Source: Trueperella pyogenes
Lineage (GTDB): Bacteria > Actinomycetota > Actinomycetes > Actinomycetales > Actinomycetaceae
NCBI RefSeq assembly: GCF_900460345.1
Contig: NZ_UHHW01000002.1
Location: forward strand, 186,001 to 250,000
Length of the DNA: 64,000 bases
Direction: 5' to 3'
Below, piece after piece: positions 6,214-39,405 of the stretch; within the stretch, counting starts at the first letter, position 1; each line of letters starts with the position of its first letter. Below the pieces are notes generated by a model. It saw nothing but the letters and a program-made list of their open reading frames with translations. It had not been told where the DNA came from and made no database searches. Both the position numbers and the translations under genes were made by a program.

Positions 6214-8244
6214 TTAGGCGTCGCGGCGGTGGCGTGCGGTGTAGCGTGAGGCGCCGAATAGGCCAGCGCCTCCGAGCAGGGCAAGGATGGAAGCTGTCAT
6301 CATGCCGTCAGTAGAGGCACCCGTGTGGGCAAGTGCGGCCTTCTTGGATGCATCAGCCTGTGCAACGACCGGAGCCTTGTCTGGAGCAGGCTTGACCACC
6401 TCAGGCTTGACCACTTCAGGTGCAGGATTTGGAGCTTCTGGCTGTGGCATCGGCGGCACGATGGGGGCGCATTCTGGCAGCCCGGAGGCCACCTCGTAAG
6501 CAACGCGCTTGGCATCGAGATCTTTTCGAGCCGCACCAACAGCCTTGTCCAAATCGGCAAGCTCACGCCCAGCATCATCGGCAGCATGACGAGCAGCATC
6601 AAGCTTAAGCGCGGCCTCAGCGCTCCCGGCCTTGGCCTTTTCGACAGCTTTTTCTGCCTCAGCGAGGGCCTTTTCCGCAAGCCCAACTTTGTTACCGAGT
6701 GCATCGGCGTCGCCTGCCTCAGCAGCAGCCTTATCTGCAGCTTTACTTGCCTTTTCAGCCTCGGCTGCGGTTTTTTCGGCTGTCTCGAAATCGGTTTGAG
6801 CTTTGGTTAGTGCGGTGTCTTTTTCGGCTGCGTCTTTTTCGGCAGTCTGAACTCTAGCGAATGCTGAAGCAACTTTCTTTTCGGCAGCCGGAACGTCTAG
6901 CTTGTTGAATTCTTTCAGTGCTTCTGCTTGAGCAGCTTTCGCGTTGGCGAGTTCTGTATCGGCTTTAACTGAAGCACTGTTTGCTGCATTGCGTGCTTTT
7001 TCGGCGTTGGCGAGTTCTGTATCGGCTTTAACTGAAGCACTGTTTGCTGCATTACGCGCCTTCTCGGCATCGGCTAGCTGATTTTTAGCAGCTTCAGCCT
7101 TCTGGAATGCTGAAGCAACCTTCTTCTCAGCAGCTGAAGCGTCCAGCTTATTAAATTCCTTCAGCACCTCTGCCTGCGCAGCCTTAGCAGCAGCGAGTTC
7201 TGTATCGGCTTTAACTGAGGCACTATTTGCTGCATTGCGTGCTTTTTCGGCGTTGGCGAGTTCTGTATCGGCTTTAACTGAGGCACTATTTGCTGCATTG
7301 CGTGCTTTTTCGGCGTTGGCTAGCTCTGTATCAGCCTTAACCGAGACCCTATTTGCCACATTACGCGCTTCCTCAGCAGCAATCAGCTTCTTCCTAGCGG
7401 CCTCAGCTTCCTGGAAAGCGACTCTTGCGGCCTTCTCCTTCTCATCCGAAGCATCTTGCCCATTCCCGCTATTAATGGCCTTCAGTGCTTCTGCCTTAGC
7501 AGCCTTGGCATCAGCGAATGTTTTCTCAGCTGCTTCGAAATCGGTTTGAGCTTTGGTTAGTGCGGCGTCTTTCTCGGCTGCGTCTTTTTCGGCTGTCTCG
7601 AAATCGGTTTGAGCTTTGGTTAGTGCGGTGTCTTTTTCGGCTGCGTCTTTTTCGGCAGTCTGAACTCTAGCGAATGCTGAAGCAACTTTCTTTTCGGCAG
7701 CCGGAACGTCTAGCTTGTTGAATTCTTTCAGTGCTTCTGCTTGAGCAGCTTTCGCGTTGGCGAGTTCTGTATCGGCTTTAACTGAAGCACTGTTTGCTGC
7801 ATTACGCGCCTTCTCAGTATCGGCCAACTTATTCTTGGCGGCTTCCCAAAGCTTAAGAGCCTTCTCAGCGGCTTTCTTGGCAGCAACGGCCTTTTCATAA
7901 TTATTCTTTGCCTGTTCGAGGGCTGCCTTCGAGTCAGCAACGGCCTTTTCGGCGGCAACAACTTTGTTACCGGCACCTAGGTCGGCCTTGACGGCATCGG
8001 CCAGCTTGGCCTGTGCATCGGCCAGGGCTTTTTGCAGTTCAGGAAGCTTTGCCTCAGTTGCGGCCAGACGATCCTTGGCCGCCTCGAGTGCAGCTTTTGC
8101 GGCTGCAACCTGGGTTTCTTTATCCTTTATCGAAATACACTTGGGCTGCTCCCCCCCGCGGGGCGCGGCGTTGGCAACAGCTGTACCGCTAGCAGAAACG
8201 ACGAGTGCGGCCGCCGCTATGCCTGCGAATGTGCGTGTGGACAT
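6214..8244 (-). CDS. Sortase-anchored Ala-rich coiled-coil surface protein (LAHTG sorting signal)
   Basis: A 676-residue cell-wall protein. A signal peptide (residues 1-26, ending ANAAP) is followed by about 530 residues of almost pure Ala/Lys/Glu/Asp heptad sequence, predicted to be a long coiled coil like streptococcal M proteins. A Pro-rich wall-spanning segment (PMPQPEAPNPAPEVVKPEVV) comes next, then LAHTG at 638-642, a hydrophobic stretch and the basic tail RHRRDA. LAxTG is the class E sortase motif of actinobacteria. The coil contains six copies of the unit SVKADTELA in 21-residue (three-heptad) modules. Its ligand is unknown; host or cell adhesion is an inference. Lower GC than neighbours. 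Confidence 0.9.
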   Translation of the reverse strand: MSTRTFAGIAAAALVVSASGTAVANAAPRGGEQPKCISIKDKETQVAAAKAALEAAKDRLAATEAKLPELQKALADAQAKLADAVKADLGAGNKVVAAEKAVADSKAALEQAKNNYEKAVAAKKAAEKALKLWEAAKNKLADTEKARNAANSASVKADTELANAKAAQAEALKEFNKLDVPAAEKKVASAFARVQTAEKDAAEKDTALTKAQTDFETAEKDAAEKDAALTKAQTDFEAAEKTFADAKAAKAEALKAINSGNGQDASDEKEKAARVAFQEAEAARKKLIAAEEARNVANRVSVKADTELANAEKARNAANSASVKADTELANAEKARNAANSASVKADTELAAAKAAQAEVLKEFNKLDASAAEKKVASAFQKAEAAKNQLADAEKARNAANSASVKADTELANAEKARNAANSASVKADTELANAKAAQAEALKEFNKLDVPAAEKKVASAFARVQTAEKDAAEKDTALTKAQTDFETAEKTAAEAEKASKAADKAAAEAGDADALGNKVGLAEKALAEAEKAVEKAKAGSAEAALKLDAARHAADDAGRELADLDKAVGAARKDLDAKRVAYEVASGLPECAPIVPPMPQPEAPNPAPEVVKPEVVKPAPDKAPVVAQADASKKAALAHTGASTDGMMTASILALLGGAGLFGASRYTARHRRDA
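6772..6990. repeat. 219-bp direct repeat, copy A (inside the surface-protein gene)
   Basis: This segment is identical, base for base, to 7585-7803. The offset is 813 bp, exactly 271 codons, so recombination between the copies would remove or add 271 residues in frame. It encodes the stretch running from a SVKADTELA module through the KEFNKLDVPAAEKK motif to TDFETAEK. Confidence 0.95.
7585..7803. repeat. 219-bp direct repeat, copy B (inside the surface-protein gene)
   Basis: The second copy of the 219-bp repeat, identical to 6772-6990. Between the copies lie further 63-bp modules (around 7010-7080 and 7200-7330), so the gene contains repeats at two scales. Confidence 0.95.
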
Positions 8245-32491: not shown

Positions 32492-33433
32492 ATGGCGCAT
32501 GAAAACATTGTCGTAGTAGGTATTGACGGTTCCGATGCGGGCAATTCTGCCTTGGAGTGGGCGCTTGCCCAGGCCCGCGCGCGTCAGGCACGGCTGCATA
32601 TCGTGTGCGGCTATGAGCTTCCATCGCAGTACATGTCGCCCGAATTCCAGGTGAGCCAAGGAAACGTCAACCACCTGTATGATTCGGCGCGCAAAATCGT
32701 CGACGAAGCGGTGGCGAGCGTTGAAGGCCAAGGGGTGGAGGTCACGTCCGCGCTCGAGTTTGGCGATCCGACCGAAGTCTTGGTGGAGATTTCCAAGCGG
32801 GTGGCATTGGTGGTGGTGGGCGGGCGCGCCCAGCACACGAGCCGCCTTGCTGATCGCCTTTTGCGGACCGTGTCCTCGGCCGTGCCGGCGAACGCATACT
32901 GCCCCACGGTCGTCGTTCCCACGGATTCGCCCCGCTCGCACGTGCCGATCGAACGCGTGGTCTGCGGTGTGGACGGATCAGAGCACGCCAAGATGGCGCT
33001 GCAACGCGCCGTCTGGGAGGCCGATCGGTGGAACGCGAAGCTGACCGTTGTGGTCGTCGTGAATCCGACGTCGGTGGGCTGGGTTCCGGCCTACACCTTC
33101 CGTGACGAACATCTGGCCGAGATGGAAGCCGAGGTTGCTGCCCAGCTTGCGCAGGTGGACGAGGGGCGCGATATCGACGTCGAGATCCAGGCACTTGAAG
33201 GTAGCCCGGCGCATATTCTTGCGCAAATGTCCGAGGAATCCGACCTGGTTGTGCTCGGCACTCGCGGCCGCGGTGGATTCACCGGTTTGCTTCTCGGCTC
33301 GACGTCGCAGACGCTACTCGGCTACTCAGCCTGCCCGACGATGGTGGTTCCCCGCCGCGTGCGCATCGGGGATGACTGTGGGCCGGGTCCGGCACAGGTG
33401 GTCGGCGACGACGAGCCAGGCATCACGGGCTAG
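32492..33433 (+). CDS. Tandem universal stress protein
   Basis: A 313-residue cytoplasmic protein with two USP domains, about 1-150 and 155-300. The second keeps the ATP-binding signature GTRGRGGFTGLLLGSTS; the first has a degraded form (GGRAQHTSRLADRL), so only one nucleotide site is likely. Tandem USPs occur in actinobacteria as dormancy or stress proteins. ATG 32492 has GGAGG upstream. The gene is followed by tRNA-Arg. Confidence 0.93.
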   Translation: MAHENIVVVGIDGSDAGNSALEWALAQARARQARLHIVCGYELPSQYMSPEFQVSQGNVNHLYDSARKIVDEAVASVEGQGVEVTSALEFGDPTEVLVEISKRVALVVVGGRAQHTSRLADRLLRTVSSAVPANAYCPTVVVPTDSPRSHVPIERVVCGVDGSEHAKMALQRAVWEADRWNAKLTVVVVVNPTSVGWVPAYTFRDEHLAEMEAEVAAQLAQVDEGRDIDVEIQALEGSPAHILAQMSEESDLVVLGTRGRGGFTGLLLGSTSQTLLGYSACPTMVVPRRVRIGDDCGPGPAQVVGDDEPGITG

Positions 33434-33480: not shown

Positions 33481-33553
33481 GCCCTCGTAGCTCAGTGGAT
33501 AGAGCACGGCTCTCCTAAAGCCGGTGTCGTAGGTTCGATTCCTATCGAGGGCA
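33481..33553 (+). tRNA. tRNA-Arg (anticodon CCT)
   Basis: Complete cloverleaf: acceptor GCCCTCG/CGAGGGC, anticodon stem CGGCT/AGCCG with loop CTCCTAA, anticodon CCT reading AGG, T-arm around GTTCGATTC. CCA is not encoded. Its 3' half is duplicated 1.2 kb downstream and is the apparent attachment site of the DUF3800 insert. Confidence 0.95.
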
Positions 33554-33554
33554 C
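33509..33554 (+). repeat. attL-like copy of the 46-bp tRNA-Arg repeat
   Basis: Runs from the anticodon stem to one base beyond the tRNA 3' end, identical to 34706-34751. Confidence 0.9.
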
Positions 33555-33754
33555 TTTGTCGAACTCCGCATCTAAGGTTGGGGTTGATGTGAAAGACCGT
33601 CACTCACGCCTGATTTGTCGGAGGCGACTGAACGGGGTTGACTGAAAATTGAGACTGTGTATAGAGTTGGTAATGGTAGCGGGGGTGAAATAGTCTTCAG
33701 AGCGCCAACTCGGGGGGTTCGCAGGAGCGGACCCTCGCGTATTAAACTTGTTCC

Positions 33755-34702
33755 ATGTTGGTTGCTTACCTTGACGAAATAGGTGAAACTGGAGCTTTCG
33801 TTTCGAAGTCACATAGGCGTTTCAATACGAGTCCCGCCTTTGGCTATGGAGGGTTCGTGATCAGCTCCGATCACGTCACTTCAATGAGTAAGCTCTTTTC
33901 CCACAACATGCGGACGCTATTCAAGGAAGAGTATGAGAATTCGGTAAGCTCTGGTGATGGTTTTTTCGAAATAAAAGGTGCTGCAGTATTTCATAAGGGA
34001 ACCCTAGCCAGTCCTCTCGCTCCAGCGAAGTTCCGCGTATTTGACGCGATGATAGAAAAGCTCATAAAGAATTTCGATGGAAGGCTCTTTTACTATGCGG
34101 ACGAAAAACCAATCGGAACAGATAAGCAAACCTTAAAAGAGCAGGGTGCACTCGAAAAGCGCGAGAGCGATGCGATGCGTGAGACTTTGAACCGTTTGGC
34201 GCGCTATGCGAAGACTCGCTCCGAGAACATTTTCATTATTCTCGACCAGATCAATGAAAAGCAACGGTATCTGCGTGCGCACCGCATGTATGGCCATATC
34301 TATAGCCGAATGCACGACTTTGACGAAATGGCGAGCATCCTAGAACCACCGATGCACGTGGATTCTAAGTTCTCTGCGAATATGCAATTTGCCGATTGGA
34401 TCGCAGCATTTGTGAGTCGCGCGATCGAATACCAGTTGATAAGAGATTCAGAGTACGGGTGGGTGATCGACCAGGAGCGTGTGAGATTTCCTCTCAGAGT
34501 AGAACGTCCGTTTACGTATGAATCAAAGCTCCGGCTGTGGGAAAAATCGTGTGATGATCTAAATAATATTGACGTGCTAAGACAAGAACGTCCTCTTTTT
34601 CCTCGATATTACGGTCAATATGTGGATCCTGACGTGGCACAAAAGATGTTAAGGATTGCTCGCGCTTCCCAGCGTCGACAATCCGGAGTTGAAAAGGACT
34701 AA
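33755..34702 (+). CDS. DUF3800 protein, cargo of the tRNA-Arg insert
   Basis: A 315-residue DUF3800 protein. The family opens with a strand-borne Y-x-D-E-(S/T)-G; here it is LVAYLDEIGETG. A later acidic site (FFEIKG) and a Q/F-x-A-D motif near the end (NMQFADWIAAFVSRAIEY) complete the set, a layout recalling RNase H-like nucleases. Nuclease activity is predicted, not shown. DUF3800 genes often occur on mobile elements and in defence-rich loci. Base composition is lower in GC than in flanking genes. The stop codon lies three bases before the right-hand 46-bp repeat, so the gene fills the insert to its edge. Confidence 0.8.
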   Translation: MLVAYLDEIGETGAFVSKSHRRFNTSPAFGYGGFVISSDHVTSMSKLFSHNMRTLFKEEYENSVSSGDGFFEIKGAAVFHKGTLASPLAPAKFRVFDAMIEKLIKNFDGRLFYYADEKPIGTDKQTLKEQGALEKRESDAMRETLNRLARYAKTRSENIFIILDQINEKQRYLRAHRMYGHIYSRMHDFDEMASILEPPMHVDSKFSANMQFADWIAAFVSRAIEYQLIRDSEYGWVIDQERVRFPLRVERPFTYESKLRLWEKSCDDLNNIDVLRQERPLFPRYYGQYVDPDVAQKMLRIARASQRRQSGVEKD

Positions 34703-34705
34703 GCA

Positions 34706-34751
34706 GCTCTCCTAAAGCCGGTGTCGTAGGTTCGATTCCTATCGAGGGCAC
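34706..34751 (+). repeat. attR-like copy of the 46-bp tRNA-Arg repeat
   Basis: An orphan duplicate of the tRNA-Arg 3' half: anticodon loop with CCT, variable region, T-arm and acceptor 3' strand, without a 5' half. It cannot make a tRNA. Confidence 0.9.
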
Positions 34752-34824: not shown

Positions 34825-37800
34825 GTGAGTCCTTTCTTTAAACGCAAGAAGTCCCAGCAGTCGGCCAGCCACGTGCCGGAGCCTGAATTGGCGCGGTCGG
34901 TGCAGTCGGCTCAGTCGGCGCCGAGTCCGGACGAAGTCGCGGTCGAGTCTGCCGACGACGTCGTACAGCCTGCTCCGATTGCCGCGTCTGATCCCCAGAC
35001 TCGCGAGCAGCTCCTCGATGAGGCCTTCGCACTCTGGCATGCCGAGCTGGCCGTGCGTGCGCAAAAAGCGGACGAGACGACGTCGCAGGCAGCCAGCGGT
35101 ATCATCGACCTCACGCATCCGCACCCGACCGGGTCTGTCGCGTTCTCTGCCGGCTCACCTGTGCGTATCACGTCGCTCGTGCGCGAGCATTTTGCGCAGC
35201 AGCGTGCAGTGAATAATTTGCGTAATCTGCAGGCCACTACTCAGCGTATCGCCGAGATGTATGGCCACGCACCGGTCTCACTCGCTGTCGGAAGGCTCAC
35301 CTGGACTGAACTGCCCTCTGCCCCGGCGTCCGCGGCTCCAACGAATGTGGAGTTCGCCGAGCTGACTGGCGAATTTAGGATCGATGAGAACGGCTCACTG
35401 GTCGCAGTGGACAGCGCTACGCCGTCCGGCGAGATCCGGGAAAGCAACGCGTACGACGCCGACGAGGGCAACGCCGGTCAGGAAAAGGACGGCGCTGGCA
35501 GAGAAGGCGGCGAACTCGGAGGCGGCGAACCCGCGCCGGGCGCGAGCGAGGCCACTCCGCGCGTCGCCCAGATTGTGCGGGAGGCGGCGTTGTTCCGCAG
35601 CGTCGCGATCGAATTCGAGGAAGGTGACGCGACTGTCCAGCAGCTAGGCCACACCGATATCAACCCCGTTTTCGTGCGGGCACTGCGTGAAAACGGGGCA
35701 ACTGCCGAACATCTAGCGCAACTGAATAACGCGGTAGCGACGACGCCGGACCTGGACTACCTGCTTGAACTCGTGCGCGGATATGGCAAGAAGTTCTTGC
35801 CGGGATTTACGTTCGACAACGAGGTTCTCCTCGGCTGTTTCGCGCGCCCTGGCCGTACCATGCTGGCCGATTTGGAGGCAATGGAACCTTACATTCGCAC
35901 GTCGGGTGTGATGATGGCACTTGCCGGTGATCTGGAAACCCGGCGCCTATCTGCCAGCCCGCTACCTCCGGGCGGGGAAGAAGATCGTGCACCTGAAGTG
36001 GAGCGTGGCGCGGGAGACCTGGACGTAGCCGAGCTCAATGCGGTGGAGGCGGTGGCTTCTGGCCGCTCGATCGTCGTCGACTGCCCACCTGGTTCCCAGC
36101 GGGTTCAGACCGTGGCCTCGATATGCGCGGATGCGGCGGCGTCGAAGCGTTCTGTGGTGGTTGTCCCCGCGAGGTTGTCCTCCGGTCGCCAGCTCATTGC
36201 TGAGCTGGACAGGCTTGGCCTGGGCGACCTGATTCTCGATTTTTCGGCAGTAGAGAAAGTGCCGCAGCGTATCCGCACGGGTCTACGCCTGAAGATCCCA
36301 CAGCTGTCTACCGAGAAAACCGTGGATCTGCGCGCAGAACTCGTGGAGACGCGTCGCCAGCTAGAGACCTTCGTAGGCGACCTGCACCGCGTAGATGACG
36401 AATGGGGCACGTCAATCCACTCTCTCCTGGAAAAGCTCGCAGGTCTGATGGCGCGCCCAGACGCGCCGACGACGCGGGTGCGCCTGGGCAAAACAGCCGT
36501 GGCCGCGATGAAGAACGAGGGAGTCGAGGCGGTGATTGCCGACTTGAATCGCGCAGCCGAGCTGGGTGCTTTCGATCCGGCAATTGCGCGATCGGCGTGG
36601 GCGGCGTCGACGATTTCGAACGCTACGGACGGTCAAAATGCACTCGATCAGGTGCGCCGACTGCGCGACATTACGATTCCGGCAGCGATCAGCCAATCGT
36701 CTCGTTCCGCGGGCGAAACATCGATGAAGCAGTCTAAGACCTTGGCCGCGTGGTTCGAACAGATTGACGTGCTAGACGGCATCGCGGATTCACTCGACAC
36801 TTTCTTGCCGCGTATTTTCGAGACATCTCCGATGAATCTTGTGATCGCGACAGCTTCGAAAGAGTGGCGCGAGTCCCACGGTCACGTGATGAAGATGTCG
36901 GAGCGGCGCCGGTACAAGAAGCAGGCTCTGGACATGGTACGGCCGGGAGAGTCCACGGCCACGCTTCACGAGGATTTGCGCAGAGTTCAGCAGCGTCGTG
37001 AGATTTGGCGACGCTATTGTGCGGACGGCGGCTGGCCTACGCTGCCCGACGGTTTGGCACAGATGCGTGCCACGCGTCAAGAGGTTCAGCGCGACCTGGA
37101 GTCGCTGCAGGACTTCTTGGGTGGCGAGGCCTTCTTCGACATGGATTTCGACGAGCTCCAGGCGCGCTTGACAGAGCTGGTCAACGACGCCGACCACATG
37201 AGCACTCTGCCAGAACGCAATGCGACGCTGGCTTCGTTGCGTGAGCGCGGATTTGCTGATTTCATTGACGACATGGTCGAGCGGGGCATCGAGCCGAGCC
37301 ACATCGCGGCGGAGCTTGATCTCGCCTATACCACTGCCGTGTTTGAAGAGATTATTGCGACGACGCCGACCGTAGCCAGTCTCAGCCCGCTCGACATCAA
37401 CGCCCTGCTGGAGAAATTCCGACAGCTGGATCGTGCCCACACGCAGACCCTGTGGGGGCCGGTGTTGCGGGCGGTGGTCAATAATGCGCGCGAGACCATG
37501 CAATCTCGCCGCCAAGACACCCTCCGGCTCGACGAAACCCTGGCCGAGAATGGCGCCGGCGGGTTGCGTGACGCGATTGCAACCTACTCCCGGCTTGTGC
37601 AGAGTGCCCGCCCCGTCTGGGTAGTGCCGGCGACTGTGCTAGCGGAGTTTATCCCGCCGATGCCGTGGGCGGATCTGGTCATTGTGGAGGCAAGTGATTC
37701 AGTTGCGCCGCTTATTTCGCCGATGATGCGCGGCCGGCAAGCTGTGGTAGTGGCCGATCTGCATCGTCCAGGGGCCGAGGACGTGCGGGTCTTTGAGCAG

Positions 37801-39405
37801 GTTTTGCCGGTGGCCTGCCTGCCCACGCTCAAGGCGGAGCATGATGTCTTGTCCGCGTACGCGCTTAAGGAAATTGGCTACGACATCTCGGCCATCCCTT
37901 CTGTCCACGAGGGGCGCGAGTCTCGTCTCGTGTTCGTCGACGGCCGCGGCGTACCGAGCGCGTCAGGCGACGGAGCAGTCGAGTCGACGCAGGTTGAGCT
38001 CGATGCGGTGGTGGACGCGGTCATCGAGCATGCGATCGCCCGCCCGCAGGAGGCCCTCGCCGTTGTTGCGCTCTCGGTGGGGCACGCCAACCGCATACGT
38101 GACGCGATCGCCGCAGCTGACTCGAGCGATGTGAAGCGGCTGAAGGAGTTCGTCGTCACCGACATCACACACGCGGTAGGCCTGCGCAGCGATCACGTCA
38201 TCCTTTCAGTGGGCTATGGAAAGACTGTACACGGCCGCGTCCTGCACACTTTCGGGGCATTGGCGACGCCGGCCGGATTGGCCGGTTTGATCGACGCCAT
38301 CGCGGCTGCCAGCTCGGACTTCACCGTCATCTCGGCTCTCGGCCCGGGAGATATCGATACCCACAGGGTCTCGACTCCTGGTCCGAAACTGCTTGCTCGC
38401 CTTATTAACGAGTCGGACGGATCCGACGTCACGAAGGTGACCTATGAAAGCGCGGTGACTCCGCTTCTGGCGGATGTCGCCCATCGCCTCAATGAACGCG
38501 GTTGGCAAACACGCGCCGCCTACGGCTACGAGGATTCTCCGCGTATTCCGCTGGTGGTGGGCAAGGACGGAGAGTTCACGGTAGCTGTTGTGCTTGACGA
38601 CGAGGCCTATGTGGCCGAACGCTCTATGCGCCGTCGTGATCGCTTTTGGATCCAAGCTCTGCAAGCACGGGGCTGGTCGGTGTTCCAGACGTTCTCCAGT
38701 TCCCTTTTCATCGATCCCGCTGGGCAAGCCGATGCCATCGAGGCGCTTTTGCTGGAACGACACCAGTTGCCCGGCGAGCCGATCCAGGTTCCGATCATTG
38801 CCGACGACGTCGTGGTCAGCGGTGACGTGGAAGATGCCGCGACAGAAAGGACACATGAAGCGAAGGTCTCGGCGCGTCCACGTGGACCGCGCCCGGACGT
38901 CGTTCCTGGGCTTAGCCTTGCCGCGTACACTGACGATCAGCTAGATGACATGATCCAGTGGATCGCCACGGACGGCCAGGCGCGTAGCGAGGACGAGTTC
39001 GTGCAGGCGTTACGCTCCGAGCTTGGAATAGCGCGCAAGGGCGAGCAGGTAGACGTTATTTTGCGTAACGTCGCCCGCCGGTCGGGCCTCATCGGGGTAG
39101 CTGTTGCGGCTGCCAGCGGTGATGACGCAACAGTCACAAAGGCACCAACTGCGGAGGCGAGCGGCGGCATGGCGGCCGGCGAGCCAGCAGTTGAGAGCAC
39201 TGCGCCCGAAGACACGGAATCCGAAGACACGGCACCAGTTGCGGAGCTACCGGCCGACGCCGCCGAGGTCAGCGAAGCGGAGGCTGCCGAGCTAAAAAAG
39301 CCGAGCGATCTGTTCGCGCCGGTGGACTACGAGATCGTGGCTGAACAACTAACGGGTGAACTCGATCTTGGCGATGCTCCTTTCTTAGGTGATGAGCGTG
39401 AATAA
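34825..39405 (+). CDS. Large helicase-like protein lacking a functional Walker A
   Basis: A 1526-residue cytoplasmic protein with the outline of a superfamily 1 helicase: an N-terminal accessory region, a first RecA-like part beginning LNAVEAVASGRSIVVDCPPGSQRVQT, a long helical insertion (about 500-880), a Walker B-like WADLVIVEASDS near residue 950, a second RecA-like part (AVGLRSDHVILSVGYGKTVHGRV) and a C-terminal Vsr-like/PD-(D/E)xK-like region (RDRFWIQALQARGWSVFQTFSS). Where active relatives read GPPGTGKT, this protein has CPPGSQRVQ (420-428), without the Lys; the DEA(S/Q) box is VEAS. ATP hydrolysis by this site is unlikely. I start at GTG 34825, with AAAGG ahead. The family placement is moderately certain. 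Confidence 0.7.
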   Translation: MSPFFKRKKSQQSASHVPEPELARSVQSAQSAPSPDEVAVESADDVVQPAPIAASDPQTREQLLDEAFALWHAELAVRAQKADETTSQAASGIIDLTHPHPTGSVAFSAGSPVRITSLVREHFAQQRAVNNLRNLQATTQRIAEMYGHAPVSLAVGRLTWTELPSAPASAAPTNVEFAELTGEFRIDENGSLVAVDSATPSGEIRESNAYDADEGNAGQEKDGAGREGGELGGGEPAPGASEATPRVAQIVREAALFRSVAIEFEEGDATVQQLGHTDINPVFVRALRENGATAEHLAQLNNAVATTPDLDYLLELVRGYGKKFLPGFTFDNEVLLGCFARPGRTMLADLEAMEPYIRTSGVMMALAGDLETRRLSASPLPPGGEEDRAPEVERGAGDLDVAELNAVEAVASGRSIVVDCPPGSQRVQTVASICADAAASKRSVVVVPARLSSGRQLIAELDRLGLGDLILDFSAVEKVPQRIRTGLRLKIPQLSTEKTVDLRAELVETRRQLETFVGDLHRVDDEWGTSIHSLLEKLAGLMARPDAPTTRVRLGKTAVAAMKNEGVEAVIADLNRAAELGAFDPAIARSAWAASTISNATDGQNALDQVRRLRDITIPAAISQSSRSAGETSMKQSKTLAAWFEQIDVLDGIADSLDTFLPRIFETSPMNLVIATASKEWRESHGHVMKMSERRRYKKQALDMVRPGESTATLHEDLRRVQQRREIWRRYCADGGWPTLPDGLAQMRATRQEVQRDLESLQDFLGGEAFFDMDFDELQARLTELVNDADHMSTLPERNATLASLRERGFADFIDDMVERGIEPSHIAAELDLAYTTAVFEEIIATTPTVASLSPLDINALLEKFRQLDRAHTQTLWGPVLRAVVNNARETMQSRRQDTLRLDETLAENGAGGLRDAIATYSRLVQSARPVWVVPATVLAEFIPPMPWADLVIVEASDSVAPLISPMMRGRQAVVVADLHRPGAEDVRVFEQVLPVACLPTLKAEHDVLSAYALKEIGYDISAIPSVHEGRESRLVFVDGRGVPSASGDGAVESTQVELDAVVDAVIEHAIARPQEALAVVALSVGHANRIRDAIAAADSSDVKRLKEFVVTDITHAVGLRSDHVILSVGYGKTVHGRVLHTFGALATPAGLAGLIDAIAAASSDFTVISALGPGDIDTHRVSTPGPKLLARLINESDGSDVTKVTYESAVTPLLADVAHRLNERGWQTRAAYGYEDSPRIPLVVGKDGEFTVAVVLDDEAYVAERSMRRRDRFWIQALQARGWSVFQTFSSSLFIDPAGQADAIEALLLERHQLPGEPIQVPIIADDVVVSGDVEDAATERTHEAKVSARPRGPRPDVVPGLSLAAYTDDQLDDMIQWIATDGQARSEDEFVQALRSELGIARKGEQVDVILRNVARRSGLIGVAVAAASGDDATVTKAPTAEASGGMAAGEPAVESTAPEDTESEDTAPVAELPADAAEVSEAEAAELKKPSDLFAPVDYEIVAEQLTGELDLGDAPFLGDERE

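Follow-up and report, generated by a model that had tools for sequence, protein, structure and literature searches.

The intact tRNA-Arg(CCT) gene at positions 33481..33554 (+ strand) of the window, the whole 64-kb stretch of DNA analysed here from the Trueperella genome G000, was located by ARAGORN and matched the Rfam tRNA model with an E-value of 2.5e-14. Given this placement of the gene, its 3' part at 33509..33554 (+ strand) spans the anticodon stem to the 3' end of the tRNA, and it recurs at 34706..34751 (+ strand) as a partial tRNA copy. The earlier note had reported the two 46-bp stretches as identical, and so they are, the exact match extending 0 bases beyond them on either side. In a scan of the window for exact same-strand repeats of 24 bp or more, this pair was the longest, the repetitive coding sequence at 6214-8244 excepted, and a 30-base core of the tRNA has no further occurrence in the genome when 2 mismatches are allowed. 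The 1,151-bp insert between the repeats (33555..34705, no strand assigned) has a GC content of 47.7%, compared with 61-62% in the flanks. Its left neighbour is a universal stress protein-like gene (32522..33433, + strand) that is syntenic in the congeneric genomes G191-G197, and its right neighbour encodes a 1526-aa protein (34825..39405, + strand) that directly follows the tRNA in G191 and G192. The 1526-aa protein bears an MTES_1575 domain, has a homologue near the tRNA in G191-G197 and shows partial likeness to the model of the anti-phage protein ProA (199.9 bits, far below the cut-off of 1500). The repetitive sequence at 6214-8244 encodes a highly repetitive Ala-/Lys-rich protein, of surface type as judged by eye, with exact DNA repeats of up to 219 bp.

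The insert carries a gene for a DUF3800 protein of 315 aa (33755..34702, + strand), a predicted RNase H-like nuclease, whose stop codon lies three bases from the right repeat, just as the earlier note had it. On the + strand the insert encloses a single ORF of at least 80 aa, DUF3800; a 111-aa ORF on the - strand overlaps the 3' end of DUF3800 and continues beyond the right repeat. The description of the insert as 1.2 kb with one gene thus stands as far as proteins are concerned, but the 200 bp to the left of the gene hold a conserved structured RNA (33671..33746, + strand) with three helices in the family model, recognised by covariation and by its match to our R1 model (62.1 bits, E 1.4e-12). 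Immediately 5' of the RNA, the site scan gave a sigma-70-like site, TTGACT-18-TAGAGT (33638..33667, + strand). The scanned region contains 2 such sites where 1.5 are expected by chance, so that this promoter-like site is indicated solely by its position before the RNA. Hairpin 3 of the RNA is conserved; the site scan gave no terminator-like site.

We know of no settled function for DUF3800. The window protein matches PF12686 with an E-value of 2.8e-14 (54.5 bits, curated cut-off 21), it is unmatched in PADLOC and NCBIfam, and its PHROGs match is a family of unknown function. In the AlphaFold2 model of the protein (pLDDT 86.7, pTM 0.84), the predicted order of elements is RNase H-like: beta-beta-(helical insert)-beta-alpha-beta-alpha-beta-alpha. 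A Foldseek search of the PDB with this model gave no match at E<=0.001, with RNase HI chains among the weak matches, and sequence comparison with the PDB found no relative. The assignment of an RNase H fold is therefore based on the order of strands and helices, the weak RNase HI matches and a statement to that effect in the passage on the DUF3800 domain in PMC10910872. Nuclease activity is predicted. Invariant acidic residues include E8, E72, E117, D164 and D214. Passages in published work place DUF3800 beside putative RNAs (PMC11701678) and describe it as a CRISPR accessory (PMC10910872, PMC12669027).

The RNA model was built from an alignment of 33 upstream sequences, the window being one training row, and its structure was predicted from the same alignment. 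It consists of three helices with 22 pairs; 96.5% of the cells are paired, both sides change at 15 pairs, and double changes occupy 92 cells, versus 18.9 in shuffled and 7-26 in slid versions of the alignment. On the strand of the gene, the model matched 60 of the 62 named DUF3800 loci at E<=1 and 53 at E<=0.01; 32 of the 62 are training rows, and among the other 30 loci 21 matched at E<=0.01. At two loci (L116 and L124) the match lies more than 1 kb upstream of DUF3800. Minus-strand matches (best E 0.0041), which mostly coincide with hairpin 3, a palindrome within the same RNAs, were left uncounted. In the family-wide search 28 of 213 genomes had a match at E<=0.001, a count that overlooks some genomes with DUF3800 units, such as G162 and G163. 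Searches with Rfam 15 returned no DUF3800 RNA family, whether for the window (E<=10), for 6 loci (E<=1) or for 28 loci at the gathering threshold. Folding of the window RNA as a single sequence was not significant (z -0.65), hence its structure is drawn from the alignment alone. The RNA is conserved or paired over most of its length, and no free variable guide stretch was seen in it by eye.

Integration at tRNA-Arg(CCT), which the earlier note had proposed, is borne out by empty sites in congeners and by different cargo between the same repeats. Two congeners, G191 and G192, join the tRNA directly to the sequence found to the right of the window's right repeat, with the same neighbours; the empty-site alignment scored 36.5 in both, versus 4.0 and 6.5 for the interior of the insert. 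In G193-G197, the five further congeners that show the tRNA pattern, it occurs once and the spacers are different or longer; the pattern was not matched in G198. DUF3800 is present in two of the nine Trueperella genomes, G000 and G195. Seven of the eight genomes other than G000 are without it, and in the eighth, G195, it sits behind tRNA-Met, in a cassette for which a second repeat was not found and whose right flank had no match among the congener stretches compared. The two genes are approximately 50% identical and no closer to each other than to those of other genera. Neither of the outcomes that the earlier note had regarded as contrary, the presence of DUF3800 and both repeats in all relatives or the lack of an empty site anywhere, was encountered.

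The tRNA-Arg(CCT) pattern was found in 38 of 213 family genomes, with two copies in five: the window genome, G067, G022, G023 and G042. Two other genera hold different cargo between these repeats. In G067 (L070, 313-1427) an HTH_17/excisionase-type gene and a PIN-domain gene are the sole cargo of a 1.25-kb insert; the PIN-domain match is weak, below the Pfam cut-off, and the stop codon of the PIN-like gene is supplied by the right repeat. In G023 the insert of approximately 6 kb carries integrase, FtsK-like and RepSA genes, and the copies are 6,108 bp apart, against 5,981 bp in G022 and 6,098 bp in G042, two genomes compared by spacing alone. A further genome, G194, has a single copy of the tRNA pattern, adjoined by an antitoxin-like HTH reading frame as judged by eye (L066). 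HTH-PIN pairs were considered as the same kind of element and rejected, the flanking repeats being too few and too mixed: a PIN match was found in 34 of 297 genomes, two of the 30 loci examined gave no alignment, and flanking repeats were seen at L154 (66 bp), L160 (119 bp) and possibly L142 and L153.

The window cassette belongs to a family of compact DUF3800 units, and this membership, together with the covarying RNA inside the insert, goes beyond the earlier reading of the locus. Direct repeats hugging the unit (left gap <=700 bp, right gap <=200 bp, E<=1e-3) were found at 9 of 50 DUF3800 loci and at 1 of 188 control ORFs of the same loci (Fisher p 3.6e-6; 53 named loci with a close homologue were eligible, 50 had enough flank, and related loci are not independent); no hugging repeat was found at the remaining 41. 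Two loci were left out of the 9: L119, with a 353-bp repeat of gene halves in an order wrong for simple insertion, and L116, with a different sequence between RNA and gene. Among the 22 closest family loci (L033-L054, a few being broken or incomplete, the set sharing some genomes with the named set), seven have clear repeats of 39-282 bp, that of L048 measured beyond an internal stop, and one (L039) has a weak pair; no repeats were found around DUF3800 at eight further loci (L055-L061, which are distant, and the fragment L062). The tRNA targets are tRNA-Arg(CCT), tRNA-fMet, tRNA-Leu and tRNA-Arg(ACG). Among protein genes, named from their translations, those for acetate kinase (ackA) and fumarase and genes of Rathayibacter and Curtobacterium are used at the 3' end, and a YyaL-like gene at the 5' end. 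Several units at such unrelated targets share the same minimal content, the RNA and the gene, and their right repeat lies on the stop codon or close to it.

Within 700 bp of DUF3800, a limit chosen after the distances had been seen, all 13 tRNAs point their 3' end at the unit (p 2.4e-4; 62 named loci and the window), whereas beyond 900 bp 4 of 8 do so. A convincing second tRNA copy was seen at five of these 13 loci (the window, L074, L083, the Salinibacterium unit L084 and the Kocuria unit L093) and not at the other eight. At L083 (4307-8467) exact 46-bp tRNA-Lys repeats enclose a 4-kb element with DUF3800 and small ORFs, among which an ORF of integrase length was not apparent. In one genus, 10 of 35 genomes show the ackA-tail pattern. 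The end of ackA is empty, with a SIR2-like gene directly after it, in G147, G148, G155, G160, G165, G166 and G169, of which G160 has its own DUF3800 approximately 1 kb further on. The cassette lies between ackA and the SIR2-like gene in G162 and G143, and that of G163 has a different right flank. Five genomes (L114-L117 and L050) have DUF3800 proteins of 50-89% identity at the 3' end of ackA, and no repeat was found at L114 and L117. The Rathayibacter genome G514 shows the empty state of L109.

We propose, with belief and doubt about evenly balanced, that the insert is a toxin-antitoxin- or defence-like RNA-nuclease cassette that was integrated by a recombinase acting in trans. It would be a mobile cassette in minimal form, combining two functional parts, the short structured RNA, probably transcribed from its own promoter, and directly behind it the DUF3800 protein with its predicted RNase H fold. 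RNA and protein may work as a pair that promotes its own retention, and a role in defence, already considered in the earlier note, can be envisaged for the cassette. The layout of promoter-like site, RNA, hairpin and predicted nuclease gene may be likened to that of type III toxin-antitoxin loci. Site-specific recombination at a point between the anticodon stem and the 3' end of tRNA-Arg(CCT) would join the cassette to the tRNA, leaving the intact tRNA on the left and the partial copy on the right. The recombinase, absent from the cassette, would most likely be provided in trans by an integrative element at the same tRNA, such as the 6-kb element of G023.

An integrase gene was not found within the compact units, and at four loci (L074, L079, L109 and L112) a comparison of coordinates gave no PF00589 match adjoining DUF3800. 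The earlier note had pointed to tyrosine recombinases, which are no more than a candidate agent here, since the window genome has only two PF00589 tyrosine recombinase matches, taken as Xer proteins, and no PF00239 serine recombinase match. None of 20 genomes searched has fewer than two PF00589 matches and 7 have exactly two, as do 3 of 20 in a further, partly overlapping set; such paired matches are presumably XerC and XerD. No PF00239 match was found in 4 of 10 genomes (G000, G195, G067 and G143). In the ten ackA-tail genomes DUF3800 units or empty sites were seen and an integrase element was not, which counts against action in trans. The scarcity of recombinase matches in G000, the 41 named loci without a hugging repeat and the eight tRNA-side loci without a convincing second tRNA copy also speak against the proposed reading. 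Conversely, on one viral contig (L229) DUF3800 directly precedes a phage-type tyrosine integrase, a single case that fits a role as cargo. The viral contigs held 5 DUF3800 loci, with ORFs and repeats inspected in two and tRNAs in four, and plasmids gave 19 DUF3800 records, 2 of them covering 80% or more.

The content of the repeats bears on the same point. In G162, G143 and G163 the variable spacer that follows ackA in the respective host is present in both repeat copies. The 80-bp repeat of G067 includes that genome's own terminator, unlike the terminators of six relatives, and the 28-bp duplication at L109 matches the site that is empty in G514. Repeats of 67-98 bp, and the 282-bp repeat of L043, with intergenic sequence that is host-specific where compared, would be odd for an attP brought in from elsewhere. 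These duplications, the small size of the compact units, which leaves no room for an integrase, the genomes with only two tyrosine recombinase matches and the five genomes with related proteins at the end of ackA, two of them without repeats, would fit a self-mobile pair of RNA and DUF3800, in which the RNase H-fold protein, perhaps with the RNA, makes a cut or nick at conserved gene ends, where insertion of the cassette duplicates the host target. We consider this rather unlikely. Conserved element ends and an evident free guide in the RNA were not seen by eye, the repeat boundaries of G162 and G143 agree within a base, as would be expected of a fixed att site or of one old insertion followed by gene conversion, DUF3800 also occurs beside an integrase and on plasmids, and the HTH-PIN element of G067 is built in the same way yet lacks DUF3800. 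It is doubtful that DUF3800 and its cognate RNA represent a new class of autonomous single-protein element, inserting at tRNA genes and conserved gene ends without a known recombinase or transposase. As gene conversion or movement within the species would also explain host-specific repeats, we prefer action in trans, with moderate confidence.

The earlier note had offered cargo mobilised in trans or a remnant; the former is kept as the preferred reading, while the latter is weakened, since RNA and gene are all that several DUF3800 units at unrelated targets contain. That the insert is the decayed remnant of a larger integrative element, which lost all but one gene and both ends, appears unlikely: the 6-kb integrase element at the same tRNA gene, the longer form at L083 with its further small ORFs and the absence of a second repeat at many loci speak for it, but convergence on the same minimal content at several targets is hardly expected from independent decay, and L083 is likewise without an ORF of integrase length. 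Old, vertically inherited insertions, in which gene conversion homogenises the repeats and recombination between these leads to precise loss time and again, are improbable: the ability of direct repeats of 46-98 bp to recombine and the shared boundaries of G162 and G143 speak for them, but the two Trueperella genes lie at different tRNAs and are no closer to each other than to those of other genera.

A CIME is a cis-mobilisable element between attL and attR without an integrase of its own, and the window likewise has two att-like repeats around cargo and no recombination or transfer gene; CIMEs derive from ICEs, however, and can be mobilised by a related ICE, whereas here one RNA-gene unit recurs at unrelated targets. 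The G023 element, which we take to be of the AICE class of small actinomycete elements, uses the same tRNA-Arg(CCT) with a repeat that begins in the anticodon region, but it has an integrase, an FtsK-like translocase and a replication initiator, all three of which are lacking in the window element. Casposons target tRNA genes. They share with the present units integration at gene ends with a duplicated target; Cas1 is missing here, and the duplications are longer and variable. In type III toxin-antitoxin systems an RNA of tandem repeats precedes the gene, a terminator separates the two, and the RNA neutralises the toxic protein. The order of structured RNA and nuclease gene in ToxIN is similar, while the window has one RNA unit of approximately 76 nt instead of repeats and DUF3800 instead of ToxN. 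OMEGA-like RNA-guided mobile nucleases have a variable guide that matches the target; by eye, no free variable stretch was seen in the present RNA. The Rfam motifs DUF3800-I and -IX, named in a passage of PMC11701678, are also structured RNAs adjoining a DUF3800 gene, but the window and the loci tested match no such Rfam family. Passages of PMC10910872 and PMC12669027 present DUF3800 as an accessory nuclease of CRISPR V-A2 and VI-F loci; the domain, with its stated RNase H fold, is the same, and the insert in the window has no other protein gene. Integrase-less DUF3800 cassettes are not described in the literature passages on DUF3800, and a printed account elsewhere is possible. In the present work DUF3800 emerges as the sole protein of an inserted cassette that recurs, has sharp boundaries and includes a covarying RNA; relatives of the window cassette are integrated at further gene ends in other bacteria and carry no known integration enzyme. 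Two questions thereby become testable, the role of DUF3800-linked RNAs and the way in which integrase-less cassettes enter conserved gene ends.

RNA matches without a clear DUF3800 (L217-L223) look mostly like remnants, and at L224 and L225 14 and 36 DUF3800 residues, respectively, are kept; such RNA-only remnants could result from the loss of a costly nuclease. An apparently decayed RNA motif, judged by eye, is present in G507 (L200) at the Rathayibacter gene end that the L109 and L112 cassettes occupy. The window genome has a second, weak RNA match (L216, C2:2084990-2085065, E 8e-4), whose surroundings resemble, on inspection by eye, a type I restriction locus and include a PIN-like ORF. At L217 (G194, 1415-2561) the place of DUF3800 downstream of the same RNA motif is taken by a PADLOC candidate defence protein (PDC-S14, E 3.4e-101).
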